Of a DNA stretch of 64,000 nucleotides, positions 2,042 through 55,380 are shown one piece after another. Source of the DNA: Hirudinaria manillensis (lineage: Eukaryota; Annelida; Clitellata; Hirudinida; Hirudinidae); NCBI GenBank assembly GCA_034509925.1, contig CM067529.1, positions 5,093,001-5,157,000 on the forward strand, in the 5' to 3' direction. The notes beneath the pieces were generated by a model that was not told the DNA's origin, made no database searches, and worked only from the letters and a program-made list of their open reading frames with translations. Every line of letters starts with the position of its first letter. Position 1 is the first letter of the stretch. A program made the position numbers and the translations under genes.

Positions 2042-3182
2042 GCTTTTCCAAATAGTTCGTGGCAGCATTTTGAAGACTAATGAAGCTAATAAATCATAAT
2101 AAATAAATAAATAAAAAAAAATGAATATAAATAATAATAATAATAATAATAATATTTCGTTTGGAAAATAAATATTAATTTGAAATGATTAAAATAGAAA
2201 TCCCAAAATGATCACGGAACGTTCGTATAAGCTTATTTCGATCAATCAAAAAGGAGACATAAACAGTTTGAAGTCGTGGTATCATAAATAGGAAATATTT
2301 TATAATTGCCTGCACATCAGATTTCGTTCATTCATTGAGGATTGCTTCCATTCAATGGAATTCAATGGGACACGACTTTGGCTGGAGTTCGGTTGTATCG
2401 AATAGTTGGGCTTTGCGTACGTCGAAGCGTTGGATCTCGTGCCGACTGGACTTGCCAGAATCCGGCATGGATTCCAATGTGGCAGACCGAGATGCGTAGG
2501 AAACATTTTCCTTTGAAATCGCCTTCAGTTGGTGGGAACTTCAATTACGAGACTTCAAAAAATAAGGACGTAACATCCCCTTAAATAAACAACGGCATAA
2601 AAGAAAAAAAAACGAAATCCCAAATAATCCTTCGCGGACTGCTTAATGAGATCGCAGTGCATTGGAATGGTTTAGAGTTTAATTACGCTCATTATTTTGA
2701 TATATTTGATACATTTTGAGTCGAACAAATATAAATATGACATCGTACTAAATAAATAATTAATTCTAATAAAGAAATAATTAATTGATTCTAAATGTCG
2801 AATTAAACACGCGTGAAAATACGTGAATATTTTCTGACAAACAACATCGAAGAATGATTTCAAATCAGGAACTGAAGTCATCACTTGGAAAAGAATTGTT
2901 ATCTTGATATTTCCACTCCTTCAGCAGATAGGAAGATGGATGGATGGATGGGTGGGTGGGTGGATTGAGGGGCGTACCGACGGACGAAACGGCGGACGGA
3001 CTGACGGACGGACTGACGGACGGATAGATGGATGGATGGATGGATGGAGAGGATTTTATCTTCAAATTCAGTTCCATCAACTATCGAAAAATTTCAGAAG
3101 ATTTTGCTGATTTTTCATTTCACTGTAACAACGTGTGACATCATCATAATAAATAAATAAATAGTAATACTACTACTACTAC

Positions 3183-3213
<31 letters not shown>

Positions 3214-4028
3214 TCCATCAGATTAATTGACACAATTATATTTAATCATATGAATGGCTAAATTCGCCTTGTAATTATTTTCTAATTGTTTTATTTTATT
3301 TACAATTACTCGACAAGAACCATTATTAATTTATTTATTGATTTATTGTTTAATTAATTAATTTATTTATTTATTTATTTATTATCGTGTGACAGAATGA
3401 TGCGCTGGAAATCAACAATAAAAACCCATTAAGTTTTAAAGCCGAAAAATTATTAGGATTTGACGTATCAAAGTTGATTTTTAAGAAATTTACAAAATTT
3501 AAAAAAATAAAAAACACGAATTTAATTAAAATAACTGAAAAATATGAATATTAACTCCTCAATGGGCACGTAGGAAACTCTCAACATCAGCACTTTGCAC
3601 TCGAGTTCACAGAGTAAAGGTATTCCATTAGACGGCATTTTGAAAAAGAAAGAATAATTTATAATCGAAGAAATATTTTAAAATTTGTCATTAATTTATG
3701 AAATTTGCACGGAACGAGTACGAAAATTATTTGATTTTCCCGAGAATTCGTGGAAAATGAAGCCTAAAAAGACGTCTTCTAGGGGGCTTAATCTTCGGAA
3801 TTTCCAGGCAATAAAACAAGAGCAACTTGTGAGATTTCAGACGTTTCTCGAGTTCTTTGGCTCGTTTGTCGAGATGACGTCGACGTTTGTTGATGTTTTG
3901 AATCGACATCGATTGTCGTCACGACCTCGTCTGACGCGAGTCACGTCAGCAGATCAGAAGTCCGCATTGCAAACCGGCCGTAGAGAGTTAAAGAAAAAAA
4001 AATGACCAGTTTTGACTTTTAATTCCAG
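2042..4028. other. Intergenic region or 5' part of the next gene, with simple repeats
   Basis: Contains (TAA)n near 2126-2152 and 3180-3212, (TTTA)n near 3360-3380, and a tetranucleotide-derived block at 2935-3050. A more GC-balanced stretch at 2310-2560 is open on both strands but matches nothing I know. The unseen 5' exons of the SLC4A11-like gene may lie in the 3680-4000 part, where a plus-strand frame is open. I could not join it in phase to the first certain exon. Confidence 0.5.
2935..3050. repeat. Degenerate tetranucleotide minisatellite (GATG/GACG-type)
   Basis: Runs of GATG and GGTG units pass into GACGGACT-like units and back to GATG. This is a mosaic of related 4-mers and gives spurious open frames on both strands. 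Confidence 0.8.
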
Positions 4029-5450: not shown

Positions 5451-8400
5451 GCATCGGAAATAATAAATGATAATGAAAGTCATTAGTACAAATGGATGAC
5501 TTATGTTCATCCATTAGAAATTCTTCTCAAGTCTAAAAGCTATTTTCAGCTTAAAAGCATTTTCCCTTGAAAAGTGGAATAATCAGTAAAAGAAAAATTT
5601 AAAAAAAAAGAAGGGAAAACCCGTGTTTAATCGTCAGAAATCCTTTTGGGGTTTCCCTGAAAGACAAAACATTGTAAGGCAAACATAGAACTTGCAATAT
5701 TTACTTTTAATAAATAATTAAACAACAGGGGGGAGCAAAACATATGCCAGATGAAGTACGATTTATTAGCTATAATCAGCTACTTATGACTATCAAATAT
5801 AATTAATTAATTAATTCATTCATTCATTCATTCATAAATTATTTACGATGCATTTACGACATTCATCAGTTAAGATGGTAGATTTGAAACAAAGCAAAAC
5901 AAAGCTAACTGAAGATACACGTGTTTCGAGGTCATGGAAAAGGTAAGAAAAAATACTTGAAAACCTTCTTAACGTCAGAAAGACAATCTCTGTCAATCTG
6001 TCTGTCCGTCATTTTCTCCGAAATCAAAAATTTCTCGCAAAGAAAATCCCTTTTAACCCCATGCTGTACGACCCTCTTAACCCGTTTTGCACATAAATTC
6101 AGTAATTAAGTACAGACGACTCGTAATTTACTTGTACAGGTTTTGCAAGTTACAAGGCGTTACAAAGTATTTCAAATAAAATAAATACGAATAAAAGTAT
6201 TTTTTATTAAATAACACAAAAAAGAGTATATTATGGAGCTTAATACGTTTTGAGGTAGCGCTTGCACGATCGTTATTGGTGGTGATTTGGCATTTGGTAA
6301 TATTTAGTTCAAATAAAATGTTAAATCGAAGTTAAATGTTACGAACTGAAGTCTACGGAGTTAATGATCAGCTGTTTTGGAACGTGTTGAAAGCCATCGA
6401 GAATTATACGTTGATGGAGGAAAAATCACTCTCATTAGGATGGATATTCTAAAAAAAATAAGATTTTATTTTTATTATTTTGATGAATAATTAAATTAAT
6501 TCCGAATTTGAAAGGAAATGAAACGTTGAACAATAAAATAGTGATCGGAGATCATTGAAACGTTGAATAGCTAAAAGCAACTCTAGTACTTTTACATTTA
6601 CTTTTAAAGTAATTTTATAAAATGTTTTTGTTTAAAATACTTTTAAAAATATAATTCTTATTCTTGAGTACTTTTTTTTTATACGGATTACTTTTAACTT
6701 TACTAAGGCTTAAGAAATTCAGTACTTTTGTTAGTACATGACATTGACAAAAAAATATTCCGAAACAATATTTAAATATTCATAAGCATCGTATGAATAT
6801 TCAGATGTACCGTTTCTTCTGTCCAAAGAAGACACGTGGCAATTGCCAGGCTGAAAAATCCGGCAAATTTCGGCAGAACGAGTCAGGAAGTGCTGTTCAT
6901 AATACTCGTCGTCACGTCAACCAAAGAAGTGATTGAAATTCAATTCGATCGCCTTTTGATTCTTAAACCAATCATAAACGACGTTTGTTAAGTTAAGTTA
7001 AGTATGTCTGAAAGAATGTCATTTTAATGGGAGCTGAGTCTCGGAACGAATGAAATGATGTTCTAAAACATAAATAATAATAAATAAATATTAAATATTT
7101 AAAAATATTAAAAAATAAATAATAAACAAACGCAAGTGAAAATTGAACTCCTACGAACAAAACAGAAAGGAACGAAGACGGCCCTGGAGACTGGCAGGAC
7201 ATTTGCAACACTTTTTGCCGACTTCGATTTGAGACTGAGACTCCTGAGCGCCCGAACTGAACAGGAATTCAAGCAGTTGATGTGGGAACACATGAAGGAC
7301 TTGGCAGAGGAGCAGCAGTGCATCGGACAGATCAGGACCAGAAAGTCCAAGGATCTGACGGGACTTAAATCCGATCATTCGGAGTCGCGGGTGAATTGAT
7401 TTCATTGAATTATCCATTGATGACGAGACGTCAATAGATATGACATGAACTATTAACTGCCAGGAAGAAGGATTTTCATCGAAACGTCGGATTGATTTTT
7501 AAAATAGTTTACGATAACCAGACGGACAGCAAGTGCTGGTTGGGTGGAGGTCTGAAGGAAGATTGGCAGAGAAGGTCTCCTCACTATCTTTCCGACTTCA
7601 CCGACGGTTTCTGAAATTTTCTTTAAGTTTACATTCCGCTCATATTTTATGGCCGCACACGAGAGCCAGCGTGGCGTTATATCTAGCCCTATAATTGGCC
7701 GTTGCTATAATATACTAGGGCAATAACAAATTTTCCAGTCTACCAACTACTTTCAATTTCCAGCAATCGTTCGACAAATGAGAGATTTGTAGACGTTATC
7801 AATGGAATCGAATCAGGACATTAAACTTATCTGAGATGTTTATTCCTGAATTCTCCTCATTTTCTCCCCAAATTCTTCTTTTTCCGAGATTGAATTATTT
7901 CGTCGTAATTTCTTTTGCTCGTTTATTCGATGGCTTTTAGATTTTTGGCGCGAATTGCGTCTGATATTTGACAGCGCGGTTGTGAAATTAGGTGATAATT
8001 AGGTGATCCTTTAACTAATTATTGGTTAATAAAATAAGTTTTTCCGATTCAATTCTCAATATTAGTTCAATTAGTCTTTAAGTTGAATACCTGAATTGAA
8101 TTGGTTAACCAAACTTAAAATTAATTGGTTTATTAAAATCTCGAGTCGTAAAATCCCGACGGAAACGAATTGCCCATTGATTCTTCAAATTCATATTTCA
8201 TTTTGAAATCCAGGATTTTGTGGTAGCAACACACTTCACAAGACGTTATCGTCAACTTTTTTCCTTTACTTCGCCTGCATTCTTCCCGCCATCGCACTAG
8301 GCGTCCTCTATTATAGCAACACGAGCGGACCAACGGGGAATGGAGAAATTGGTAAAAAATTCTGATTTTTTTTATCCTGAAAAATGTCAAAAACATATGA

Positions 8401-49219: not shown

Positions 49220-49625
49220 TAATAATAACCGCGGACAACTTGCTTCCCTTGTAATTTTTATTGAATTAATTGGCTTGAAGTGGGAAATGTGAGAAATCAT
49301 CAACTATTCGCTTCCATCAAAGCCAGTGAGATTATTTGTTATTTTATTACTATTTATTATTATTATTATTATTATTGCAGGAATTATGGAAACTGTTTTA
49401 CCAAAAATAAATAAACAAATTATTAATTAATTAAAAATTAATTAATTAGAAGTGAAATGAATGTTGTCAACTCTACTGCCTCCATGAAATTGTCAATGAA
49501 AATCAAGAAAATATTTTAATTTTTAAGTATTTAAACATTTATATTTGAACTCAAACAGTGAATGAATTCTTGGTTTCATCGTGTTCATTCGGAAACAAAT
49601 GGAAGGAAGGATGATCGAGAGATGG
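49124..49625. other. Intergenic with (TAA)n
   Basis: (AATAAT)n at 49172-49230 and (TTA)n at 49350-49378; otherwise AT-rich without a gene. Confidence 0.6.
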
Positions 49626-50340
49626 TTATGACGGTGTGATGTTGTGACGGGGTGATGTTGTGACGGTGTGATGTTGTGAGGGGGTGATGTTGTGACGGTG
49701 TGATGTTGTGAGGGGGTGATGTTGTGACGGTGTGATGTTGTGAGGGGGTGATGTTGTGACGGTGTGATGTTGTGATGGTGTGATGTTGTGAGGGTGTGAT
49801 GTTGTGAGGGTGTGATGTTGTGACGGGGTGATGTTGTGACGGTGTGATGTTGTGACGGTGTGATGTTGTGAGGGGGTGATGTTGTGACGGTGTGATGTTG
49901 TGATGGTGTGATGTTGTGAGGGTGTGATGTTGTGAGGGTGTGATGTTGTGACGGGGTGATGTTGTGACGGTGTGATGTTGTGACGGTGTGATGTTGTGAC
50001 GGTGTGATGTTGTGAGGGTGTGACGTTGTGACGGTGTGATGTTGTGACGGTGTGATGTTGTGACGGTGTGATGTTGTGAGGGTGTGACGTTGTGACGGTG
50101 TGATGTTGTGACGGTGTGATGTTGTGATGGTGTGATGTTGTGACGGTGTGATGTTGTGACGGTGTGATGTTGTGACGGTGTGATGTTGTGATGGTGTGAT
50201 GTTGTGACGGTGTGATGTTGTGACGGTGTGATGTTGTGATGGTGTGATGTTGTGAGGGTGTGATGTTGTGAGGGTGTGATGTTGTGATGGTGTGATGTTG
50301 TGAGGGTGTGACGTTGTGATGGTGTGATGTTGTGATGATG
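49626..50340. repeat. 16-bp minisatellite, about 44 copies, with 8-unit higher-order repeat
   Basis: Unit TGATGTTGTGANGGKG, with N = C, G or T and K = G or T as the main variable sites. Sixteen bp times three makes 48 bp, so minus-strand frames read a 16-residue period (HHNITPSQHHTVTTSH-like); these are not genes. A run of eight variant units appears twice in succession, at about 49747-49874 and 49875-50002 (128 bp each). Confidence 0.95.
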
Positions 50341-50580: not shown

Positions 50581-50793
50581 AATATAATATAATATAATAT
50601 AATATAATATAATATAATATAATATAATATAATATAATATAATATAATATAATATAATATAATATAATATAATATAATATAATATAATATAATATAATAT
50701 AATATAATATAATATAATATAATATAATATAATATAATATAATATAATATAATATAATATAATATAATATAATATAATATAATATAATATAAT
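50581..50793. repeat. (AATAT)n array, left of the retroelement
   Basis: About 213 bp of perfect AATAT units ending abruptly at AAGGAAATGG, where retroelement coding sequence begins. Confidence 0.95.
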
Positions 50794-52015
50794 AAGGAAA
50801 TGGTTCGGGTTACCGCCTTCGCTATCGTCGATCGCCTTGTACAGCAGAAGCACACGGTTGAGGCTGCCCCTCAGATCCATCGTTGAAGAATATAAAATTA
50901 GCAAAATCAGAACTCAATGGTCGCTCAACAACTCCAGTGACAGCAGGGTCCGCGACGTCATGCCGAAACTCCGCTCAGGAAGGAAGTTCAGAGCCCAGGA
51001 AGAAATTGAGGAATCCGAGGCAATCCTAGCCTTTGAGGAGAAAAGAGGACCCGTGCAGGTAGACCGCCATGGAGTCGGATGGAACCATTTTCCAAGATGG
51101 TCCACAGCGAACGTGCAGACAAAAGCCGCCATGATAATCCAAGAGAGAAGGCGAGAGATGGAGACTGAAAGGATTGCGCTGGCAGTGCAGCAAAGCCAGC
51201 AAGGACAGTGGACAACCTGGGAAGACGTCATCCAAAGATCCATCACATGGAAAGACATTTGGAAAAAGTCTCCCCTCCGCTTGGCATTCCTCATAAGGTC
51301 GGTCTACGACGTGCTCCCTTCCGGGTCCAACTTACAGAAGTGGGGGATGGTTCAAGACGCCAGCTGCGAGCTCTGCGGAGGTGAACAGTCACTCCGGCAC
51401 GTGCTTTCATCATGCATGTACGCCCTTGCTCACGGTCGCTACACTTGGCGACATAACCAAGTCCTGCAGGTCGTGGTCGAGGCGGCTAAGACGGCATGCT
51501 CCCAGGCAAATGCCCGAGAAATCGCGGCACCAAGAAGAATGTACTTCTTAAGAGAGGGCTCAACGCAGCACCGCAAAAGGAACATGGCCCAAATGAGGGA
51601 CTTGCTATCCACAGCCAAAGACTGGACAGTTGCGGCAGACCTGCAGGGAGAAAGGCACTACCACCAGGTGATACAAGAGAGCGGCAAGCGGCCTGATCTG
51701 GTGCTGGCGTCGGCAGCAACCGATTCCGTCATTATCGTAGAGCTGACGGTCCTATGGGAGGACCGAATTGATGTCAGCAATGCTCTGAAGAGCGACCGTT
51801 ATGAAGAGCTGAAGATGGATTTAGAGGGGAAAGGTTATAGCGCCCGTGTGTTACCAATAGAAGTCGGAGCGAGAGGGCTGGTAGGCAAGTCTACATACGC
51901 CTTTCTCAGGAAGATAGGCCTTTCAAACAGGCAAACCAAACAGTTCGTCCAGAAAATAGCCGAGTCCGCAGAATCGGCTTCTCACTGGATCTGGACAACG
52001 AAGGACCAAAGGTAA
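50794..52015 (+). pseudogene. Retroelement ORF: RT thumb, CCHC knuckle, REL endonuclease (5' truncated)
   Basis: The open frame extends from the array junction (RKWFGLPPSLSSIALYSRST) to TAA at 52015 with no stop or frameshift, about 406 codons. In order: thumb region (RLPLRSIVEEYK); SPLRLAFLIRSVYDVLPSG; a CCHC knuckle C-x2-C-x7-H-x4-C in CELCGGEQSLRHVLSSC; and a restriction-like endonuclease with YTWRHNQVL, the PD...E catalytic core in KRPDLVLAS and VIIVELTVLWEDR, then KSDRYEELK. The family uses this domain to nick its DNA target. The palm and fingers of the polymerase and any N-terminal DNA-binding domain are missing, so the copy cannot be autonomous. Confidence 0.88.
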
Positions 52016-52390
52016 GCCTCAGACACGGCGAGGCTAGTCGTCCCTGTCCACTCCACCAAAACAGGGACTCCAGTGTAAGACCAGGAAAGAGACACCCCGG
52101 ACGGCATTCACACCAAAGTGATATAAGAAGTGCCGTAACGGCTACTTTGACGGTTTTTCAGACGGCGGAGCCCTCGCGGAATTTTTCGTAAAATGGCGGT
52201 GCGAGTATTGTTTGTTTGTCGGAAGTCGTTGTCTGGTTACCGGAAGAAAGTATCTGGCAGGGACATCCGCTTGATCAACGGATGCGGCCCAGCCCCCGAG
52301 AGTGTCAGGATTCAGGGCCGAAACACTCGTAGAGGGGGCCATTCCTCTGAAGATCCCTGTCAGAACGCTCGCTCAAGAGTTTCTATCAAT
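50794..52390 (+). mobile_element. 5'-truncated non-LTR retrotransposon with restriction-like endonuclease
   Basis: About 1.6 kb copy flanked on both sides by the same AATAT array. It starts inside the reverse transcriptase thumb, runs through the C-terminal zinc knuckle and endonuclease to a stop at 52015, and ends with a 3' UTR of about 375 bp. The 5' truncation is typical of target-primed reverse transcription. The protein layout places it among the early-branching clades with a C-terminal endonuclease (R2, R4, NeSL, CRE, Hero); I cannot choose the clade without a tree. GC content is far above the surroundings. Confidence 0.88.
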
Positions 52391-52525
52391 AATATAATAT
52401 AATATAATATAATATAATATAATATAATATAATATAATATAATATAATATAATATAATATAATATAATATAATATAATATAATATAATATAATATAATAT
52501 AATATAATATAATATAATATAATAT
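52391..52525. repeat. (AATAT)n array, right of the retroelement
   Basis: About 135 bp of the same pentanucleotide, same orientation as on the left side. Confidence 0.95.
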
Positions 52526-52686: not shown

Positions 52687-53175
<489 letters not shown>

Positions 53176-55380
53176 ACGATAGCAAATAGGCTCTCGATAT
53201 AATGAGAGATTTTAATACTTTAAATTCGTGGCATAATATTTTTATTTACTTCCAAAAATAGGGTCGTAAAAGATCCAGAAATATTCCCAAAGAGCACGTG
53301 GCTATGATGGTGATGATGATGACGACGACGATGATGATGATAATGATGTTCCCGAGCACATGTTAATTTCTTTCTCTTCGTTTTTCAAAAGCAGCTGCAT
53401 GATATGTTTTAATAACGAATCTAATATTTCATATTTGTGCTATTTTTTATTTATTTGTTTTTATCATTTAATTCAATATTTATTTATTTAAGTTTGTTTT
53501 ACATTTCAACAACATTTCAGCAACAACAACAGCATCAAAGGACGATGCCACTTCAATTCCTGCATGTTTTCTTTCTTTTACAATCAGTTCTTCAAAAGAA
53601 ATGTTCTTTGGCTCCACGGAAAACATGCGCTGAACTAACAAACTTCTGCACTTCAAACAACTTCTCGACGATGTTTAAAACGTTGCACAAAACATTGTAA
53701 TACATTTAAATACAAAACAATGCAATACAAAGCATTGAAATCAAACAACATCCAAACAACGAAATAGTTACCCAATAACAACAATAAACTGAATAACATT
53801 TAATCGTCCGTATAATAATTAGTTAAATATAATTTAACCAAATTTAATAAAATACTAATTAATTGATTATCATTAATTATTTATGAATTTCATTAAATAT
53901 TAATTATAATTATAATGAACTGTTGGATGCATAAAACATGTTCATAATTTTTAATGGGAAAACTTTCAGCGATGGAGTGGCGAAAGTCATCGTAATATTT
54001 CTTCGTAATAGTCTGTTATTATTATTATTATTATTATAATTAATTACAACACAAAACTATTTGAATCATATATCATATATAATAATGATAATAACTATTA
54101 TTATATTTAAATGAAGATTATTGTTATTATTATCATTGTTATTAACATAATAAATATTATTTAATTGTGAAAGGTGACTAACAAATGTTTTCTTTGAAGC
54201 GAATGTTTTGAAAATGTTGTCTTTGTTTTGCTTGAAAAAGATTTAAAAAGATTTAAAAGTTTCAAACTTTGCCTCAGTTTCACGAAAGTTGGTTTTGCTT
54301 TCCTTGTGAAAGTTCGTGCAAATGTTCGTCGTGAACATTCGAACAAAAGAGCGTGGAAATTGTGGAAATTGATTGAACGATTGAATGATTGAATGATTGA
54401 TTGGATGATTGATTGATTGAATGAACGATTGAATGATTGATTGAATGATTGATTGAATGATTGAATTAGCATGTAATGTCTTCCATAAATTTCCTTTTCA
54501 ACCGTAAATAACCGAACACAGGTTTTTCAAACAAGAAGAAATCTCCACTCCAAGCATTCGGATAATGAATGATGCGTCTGGTGAGGTTTATTAGTTATTA
54601 TTACTGTTAATAAACAAATAAACTATTTATTTATTTGATTATAATAATAATAAGAAATAAACTACTTTTTATTTATTTGATTATTTATTATTATTATTAT
54701 TATTATCAATAATCAACAAGTAGTTCCTCACACATATTTAGTTATGATATCAATATTTCATTAATAAATATTATTATAATAAATATTATTAAATAAATCA
54801 ATCAACAATTAATGATAATAATCATTAAATTATTATTAAATCTTATATCTAAATATTATTAGATCCTACTAAATGCATGGCATCATATATCAATCAATAA
54901 CAACTTCAATCGTTCAATCAGTAACCGATTAAACGTTGATTTTTTTCTTCAAATTTCACCGAAATTACGATTATTATTACGAAAATATGTTTATTATTTT
55001 GTGTATTCAAGTATTATTATTTGAAGGTTAAAAAAATCTTTGAGAAGCAAAAAGTTGTTCTTGTCATAAACTTTTCGATTCATTTCTTGAACATTGTTTC
55101 TCATGAATTCATAAGGAATCGCTAAATTTCTGTGCTCACGTGTCGTCGATTTCAATGGTAAATTGTTATTTAATTAATTTTAAATTATTTATGCAATGAT
55201 GGTTTTGTCATCAGTCGTTCTCCAGTTATTCAATCCATCGTTTAATAACGACGAAGTGTGTTATAAAGTGAACGAACCACCGAATGGAAGCACTGATTGA
55301 ACAAAGATCGAGTCGACAAAGAAAGTGATTGAATGACATTGAACAAGTTAAAGTTGAAACAATAAACTCACAAGCAACCG
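53176..55380. other. AT-rich gene-poor stretch
   Basis: Short GAT and TTA triplet tracts, and a tetranucleotide-type block at 54370-54472 (ATTG/AATG units). No supported gene. Confidence 0.5.
54370..54472. repeat. Degenerate GATTGAAT-type tetranucleotide repeat
   Basis: Alternating ATTG and AATG units over about 100 bp; the Gln/Ser-rich minus frame is an artefact. Confidence 0.8.

Follow-up and report, generated by a model that had tools for sequence, protein, structure and literature searches.

A putative R2-group retrotransposon family in a leech genome inserts at TA, preferably within TA-rich microsatellites, and keeps its intact 5' ends almost only in head-to-tail arrays

The window copy and its flanking arrays

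The window is a stretch of 64,000 nucleotides from the leech Hirudinaria manillensis (GCA_034509925.1, contig CM067529.1, positions 5,093,001 to 5,157,000), and it holds a 5'-truncated copy of a retrotransposon family, here called family A, set between two (AATAT)n arrays (Table 1). The earlier note had described the same pentanucleotide array in the same orientation on both sides, which TRF bears out with a 100% match over 50581-50794 and 52389-52525. Strict AATAT units lie at 50581-50790 and 52391-52525 on the same strand, and the window contains no further run of at least four AATAT or ATATT units beyond these two arrays. The left edge of the insertion, 50794/50795, falls within coding sequence past the RVT_1 domain, at about codon 752 of the full unit; its placement between array and sequence encoding the reverse transcriptase (RT) thumb is thus upheld, with 'thumb/linker' a fair description. 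The right end was also placed well except for a single base: the element ends in CAA at 52389, not at 52390. Aligned to the 3849-bp unit described below, the copy carries 22 mismatches in 1595 bases and no gaps, and reads ELTVLWE where the reference unit has ELTVPWE. The wider insertion region is flanked by a 16-bp minisatellite (44 copies; window 49625-50335) and an extended (AAT)n array of 163 units (window 52688-53176).

Table 1. Features of the family A insertion (window coordinates)
Feature	Position	Strand	Evidence
(AATAT)n array upstream of the insertion (left flank)	50581..50794	+	TRF: 42.8 units, 100% match
5'-truncated family A copy (unit bases 2255-3849)	50795..52389	+	blastn against the L009 tandem unit: 98.6% identity, gap-free
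Residual open frame: predicted RT-endonuclease linker, CCHC knuckle and endonuclease motif	50795..52012	+	ORF 50783-52015; zf-RVT E=2e-7
Stop codon and 3' UTR, terminating ...TTTCTATCAA	52013..52389	+	Final 29 bases match 112 genome places with at most 3 mismatches
Near-invariant target TA, right behind the 3' end	52390..52391	+	TA at 85/88 terminal ends trimmed, 82/88 untrimmed
Right (AATAT)n array, downstream flank	52390..52525	+	TRF 52389-52525: 27.4 units, 100% match

The family A unit and its predicted protein

The 3' UTR of the window copy matches many places across the leech genome (366 initial candidates, of which 40 were scored), and several of these matches recur at exactly 3849 bp spacing. 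A tandem array at one such locus (L009) served as the reference; its unit is 3849 bp long and has a single open frame of 1157 codons. As in the R2 group, this one frame encodes a reverse transcriptase, matched by RVT_1 (Pfam) at residues 420-677 with E=2e-23, and zf-RVT was matched as well. Two RT models of NCBIfam were also matched, both far under their cut-offs. A sequence search of the PDB with the RT returned R2 reverse transcriptases as its three best matches (best E 2.6e-22), followed by L1 and further RT chains, so that proteins of R2, the elements of 28S rDNA, are the closest solved relatives of the family A enzyme.

Downstream of the RT lies a CCHC knuckle, CELCGGEQSLRHVLSSC, at residues 942-958, with the spacing CX2CX7HX4C. 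This agrees with the spacing CX2-3CX7-8HX4C given for the restriction-like-endonuclease class in the consulted portion of PMC5678591. The knuckle is followed by an RPD...ELTVPWE motif (RPD...ELT at residues 1050-1069), readable as the PD..E motif of a restriction-like endonuclease. The endonuclease part gave no meaningful match in the PDB sequence search (one row, E 0.65), and its single-sequence structure model had a poor pLDDT of 43. An N-terminal pattern, CXCX12HX5C, occurs at residues 101-122, where Pfam matched no zinc finger. Judged from these sequence motifs, assignment of the window element to the R2 group of non-LTR retrotransposons is supported, and it shows features typical of those with a restriction-like endonuclease, in agreement with the element type named in the earlier note. 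By resemblance of its protein, family A may be HERO-like.

Family A inserts at TA, preferably in TA-rich microsatellites

The whole genome was searched with a 29-base pattern of the 3' end, allowing at most 3 mismatches; 112 places matched and the reversed control gave 0. We listed and read 103 of the 112. The tabulation comprises 104 ends, namely 102 listed places and two 22-nt ends (L018, L019), with one array junction (L100) read separately. Of the 104, 16 continue directly into a further unit, which leaves 88 terminal ends. TA stands directly behind 82 of the 88 terminal ends, and behind 85 once short tail repeats are trimmed, against a background of 7.5% of window positions outside the insertion; the three ends lacking TA after trimming are L061, L069 and L088.

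Many of these TA dinucleotides open a microsatellite. Behind 17/88 terminal ends lies a pure array of the AATAT type that is 25 bp long or longer, where 0.076% is expected from genome-wide 25-mer counts (22,473 25-mers), an enrichment of 255-fold; behind 6/88 lies pure (TA)n of the same minimum length, where 0.003% is expected (about 2300-fold). By a wider definition, 37/88 ends open directly into pentamer repeat (15 bp or more) or TA repeat (12 bp or more), and the flanks of another 11 begin with a different tandem repeat, a TA run below that length or a stretch made up of A and T only. The remaining 40 terminal flanks have no clean array, many of them being TA rich, and microsatellites are therefore preferred, not required. 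In 22 of 25 pentamer-array flanks the TA is in phase with the repeat (chance 2/5, p~1e-6; the three misfits, L013, L078 and L093, were picked by eye), from which it follows that TA is part of the target and not added to it.

Insertion of family A into microsatellites far above chance is thereby confirmed, and the target is TA, preferably within TA-rich microsatellites. The earlier note had proposed that the element is target specific, had suggested AATAT repeats as a new target, and had recommended a genome-wide search by the 3' end with tabulation of downstream sequence, in which other copies with no AATAT enrichment would have spoken against it. That search gave the opposite outcome: specificity stands, on TA behind 85/88 ends and the 255-fold array enrichment, and so does the preference for AATAT arrays (17/88). 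AATAT as sole target does not, being ruled out by the many different repeat units behind the 3' ends; other flanks consist of (TA)n, (TACA)n, (TATGG)n, (TATTA)n or non-repetitive TA-rich DNA.

At five 3' ends (L017, L031, L032, L058, L088) a short exact repeat of the last 4-10 bases of the element precedes the flank, and these tail repeats look like synthesis restarted on the RNA end.

The same microsatellite flanks many family A copies on either side, and where the outer flanks of five arrays of the element were compared it did so in four. Fifteen copies or arrays were scanned for target-site duplications: four had none and four only 2-6 bp, and six of the remaining seven lie in simple repeats, where a duplication is indistinguishable from the array. 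This leaves L024, which has a 34-bp direct duplication and a few ATT units in its flank.

A sister family in the same genome lacks the array preference

A second family, B, is about 68% identical to A over 1.7 kb of coding region and has a unit of 3972 bp. From 100 listed 3' ends (of 146) we picked 40 at regular intervals, five of the second batch being replaced since they lay inside arrays or had already been sampled; four of the 40 proved to be array junctions, which left 36. None of these 36 opens immediately into a pure array of pentamers or of TA, as compared to 37/88 in family A (p = 2e-7); counting L021 the figure is 1/37 (p = 3e-6), and with an offset of at most 4 bases allowed it is 2/37 (L137, L021). 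Family B ends in ordinary DNA. The preference for microsatellites thus belongs to family A and not to the genome or the method. TA follows the terminal CAGCATC of family B in 12/32 flanks (the 32 of 37 with TC), compared with 7.5% (p~2e-6), and this TA matches the first bases of the family's own 5' end. One B end (L117), judged by eye, runs into an internal stretch.

Intact 5' ends lie almost only in head-to-tail arrays

A genome-wide search with a 31-base pattern of the family A 5' end matched 18 places. At 17 of them the intact 5' end lies directly behind the 3' end of another copy, in the junction CAA|TACACC; one junction reads TACTCC instead, and none of the 17 carries extra bases. The eighteenth belongs to a solo copy in (AATAT)n (L094/L133), and one further solo copy starts at base 19. 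Read from the other side, 17 of the 18 copies that directly follow an A 3' end have an intact 5' end, L087 being the exception.

The 17 junctions fall in 15 arrays, each with a 5'-truncated first copy. The lengths of these upstream copies take 15 different values, from 22 to 2790 nt, and the 15 arrays therefore represent separate events. The spacing across the downstream copy is 3825-3869 in 11 of 12 cases, with C6 shortened to 2228; in the C2 array, sequence is deleted from within the upstream copy, and the downstream one ends prematurely. Within arrays, the units at L009 are identical and both copies at L011 have a private variant in common. Neighbour similarity across 13 of the 15 arrays (C2 and L019 left out) is concordant only in part. 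The C6 pair was misaligned and ignored, and several young arrays are too similar to inform; in C9b and C10a a copy from another array is closer than the neighbour, and C10a is clearly mixed.

Family B behaves alike, with 23 of 26 5' ends within a CAGCATC|TATACC junction (at most 1 mismatch); the remaining three have no such junction within 3 mismatches. One B array (G000 C4:10158399-10182248) contains seven 3' ends spaced exactly 3972 bp apart. Aligned from the first base, the 5' leaders of the two families need no gaps, and the initial TA is conserved. An Rfam scan of the L009 stretch containing two junctions matched no HDV-like, hammerhead or other ribozyme; its two rows were both to one bacterial sRNA model, at E 0.67. 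Folding of the whole leader was not notable (z -1.4). The first 108 nt (L009:2864-2971 in A, and L108 from its TATACC in B) contain three or four small hairpins whose loops are of the GAAAGA type; one hairpin has a compensatory change between the families (ACCGG/CCGGT vs ACCTG/CAGGT).

Discussion

We propose that the endonuclease of family A nicks a TA-rich simple repeat, and it may itself take part in the choice of site. A primer strand ending in TA-3' would then be extended from the RNA end ...UAUCAA by target-primed reverse transcription. Most copies would stop early and leave a 5'-truncated copy within one microsatellite. Synthesis that reaches the 5' end of the RNA (UACACC...) would usually continue, entering a second unit at its 3' end before stopping, such that a single event could produce both a truncated copy and a copy with an intact 5' end. 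The arrangement of the arrays is best explained by reverse transcription that continues across the border between two units. The run-on might be template jumping between two RNAs or the reading of a tandem or circular RNA. Taken as a whole, the account of a young R2-group element that targets TA-rich repeats, is copied by target priming and runs on into a second unit is in our judgement probable.

Two explanations that dispense with targeting, both raised in the earlier note, are chance insertion in A/T-rich DNA and growth of the arrays from a short seed after insertion. The window averages 65% A+T and the genome is rich in simple repeats, as either would want, but TA at 85/88 terminal ends and arrays enriched 255- to 2300-fold go against chance. 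Because many different repeat units flank different copies and the sister family in the same genome has no such enrichment, array expansion does not account for the flanks either; we consider these explanations very improbable. The arrays of elements might instead have arisen by later, separate insertions beside an existing copy. According to the part of PMC2718515 consulted, Drosophila R1 arrays are built in this way, their units split by a 14-bp target duplication, and a TA could serve family A likewise; the mixed array C10a also fits. The target of family A is loose, however, in that any TA will do, and insertion at exactly the TA of its own 5' end in 17/18 cases would call for an additional and very stringent specificity. 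Later insertion is made less likely by the intact 5' ends of 17/18 copies behind 3' ends (all except L087), with only one of the 18 intact 5' ends found elsewhere, and the private variant in both copies at L011 is a further point against it. We regard this origin of the arrays as quite improbable.

The remaining choice concerns the template. R2 reverse transcriptase running off a template adds untemplated bases (as described in the portion of PMC2718515 consulted), and the A junctions, all 17 without extra bases and only one with a substitution, fit a continuous template better than jumping. If the RNA were tandem or circular (...CAA-UA-CACC...), the target TA would pair with the UA of the next unit, and run-on would give exact head-to-tail copies. 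Such a template is consistent with the clean junctions and with flanks that tend to match the first bases of the element's own 5' end in both families, the B flanks being enriched in TA behind CAGCATC (12/32). The 23 B junctions with at most 1 mismatch, the near-absence of intact 5' ends outside arrays, the 5' TA conserved between A and B, the identical L009 units and the equal spacing in B arrays are also consistent with it. Against it, the tail repeats at four of five ends would be re-starts on an RNA end at CAA that lacks UA, the solo intact 5' end (L094/L133) and the solo copy from base 19 speak for an RNA with a defined 5' end, Rfam matched no known ribozyme at the two L009 junctions, and array C10a is mixed. 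Tail repeats, solo copies and mixed array alike fit free RNA ends and jumping. We hold a tandem or circular RNA to be possible, if somewhat unlikely. The full form of this idea, concatemer replication, in which a head-to-tail or circular template sets the target by pairing TA with the next unit's UA and intact 5' ends occur in arrays only, is tentative and rather unlikely; were it true, target choice and array formation would be one mechanism, common to family B.

Family A joins known elements that target microsatellites, and this aspect is not new. In the portion of PMC4640811 that was available, the HERO clade, to which HERO-1_HR from the Californian leech belongs, consists of many non-specific families and some microsatellite-specific ones, for which a Repbase leech report is cited. 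Family A resembles the latter in microsatellite targeting and in its apparent restriction-like-endonuclease class, and the contrast between A and B is consistent with, not diagnostic of, such a clade. The elements of the R4/Dong type, to which the earlier note compared the insertion, are likewise microsatellite-targeting members of that class: in the parts of the reports consulted, DongAg and DongBg insert in microsatellites (PMC3636483) and TAA repeats lay upstream in the study of Bombyx Dong (PMC3774820). Family A differs from them in that any TA-containing repeat serves; its flanks are dominated by AATAT-type and TA arrays, not by the TAA repeats typical of Dong. The published microsatellite-specific HERO families are the closer precedent.

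Family A is unlike R2 in having no single site, the 88 terminal flanks being simple repeats or varied DNA as judged from the flanks themselves, and in its intact 5' ends, which are nearly always in tandem. The consulted portions of two studies describe extension of cDNA by template jumping of R2 protein in vitro (PMC11371274, PMC12180492), and the former also describes head-to-tail tandem products in cells with endonuclease-dead R2 proteins. Head-to-tail non-LTR arrays are formed as well by Drosophila R1 and the telomeric HeT-A (available parts of PMC2718515 and PMC11698117). In R1 a 14-bp target duplication stands between the units, which represent separate insertions (PMC2718515), and HeT-A is telomeric (PMC11698117); in contrast to both, the units of family A adjoin one another exactly, behind an upstream copy that is truncated.

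In the available portions of the literature searched we found neither a TA rule across many repeats, nor the sister-family contrast, nor the near-confinement of intact 5' ends to arrays; the rules on TA and on concatemers seem to be new. Two families of one genome with sharply different target choice offer a natural pair for finding the determinants of specificity in the R2 group, which would be useful for R2-based tools for RNA-templated gene insertion. The near-absence of intact 5' ends outside arrays would constitute a genomic record of cross-unit reverse transcription in nature, a process that the literature searched, in the parts available, otherwise describes from test tubes and transfected cells.

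One locus may bear on the priming of synthesis in its own way. At L018 (complement, about 6719-6740) the truncated 5' side of a copy is joined directly by a 22-nt inverted 3' end and then by a pentamer array, which looks like priming from both DNA ends.
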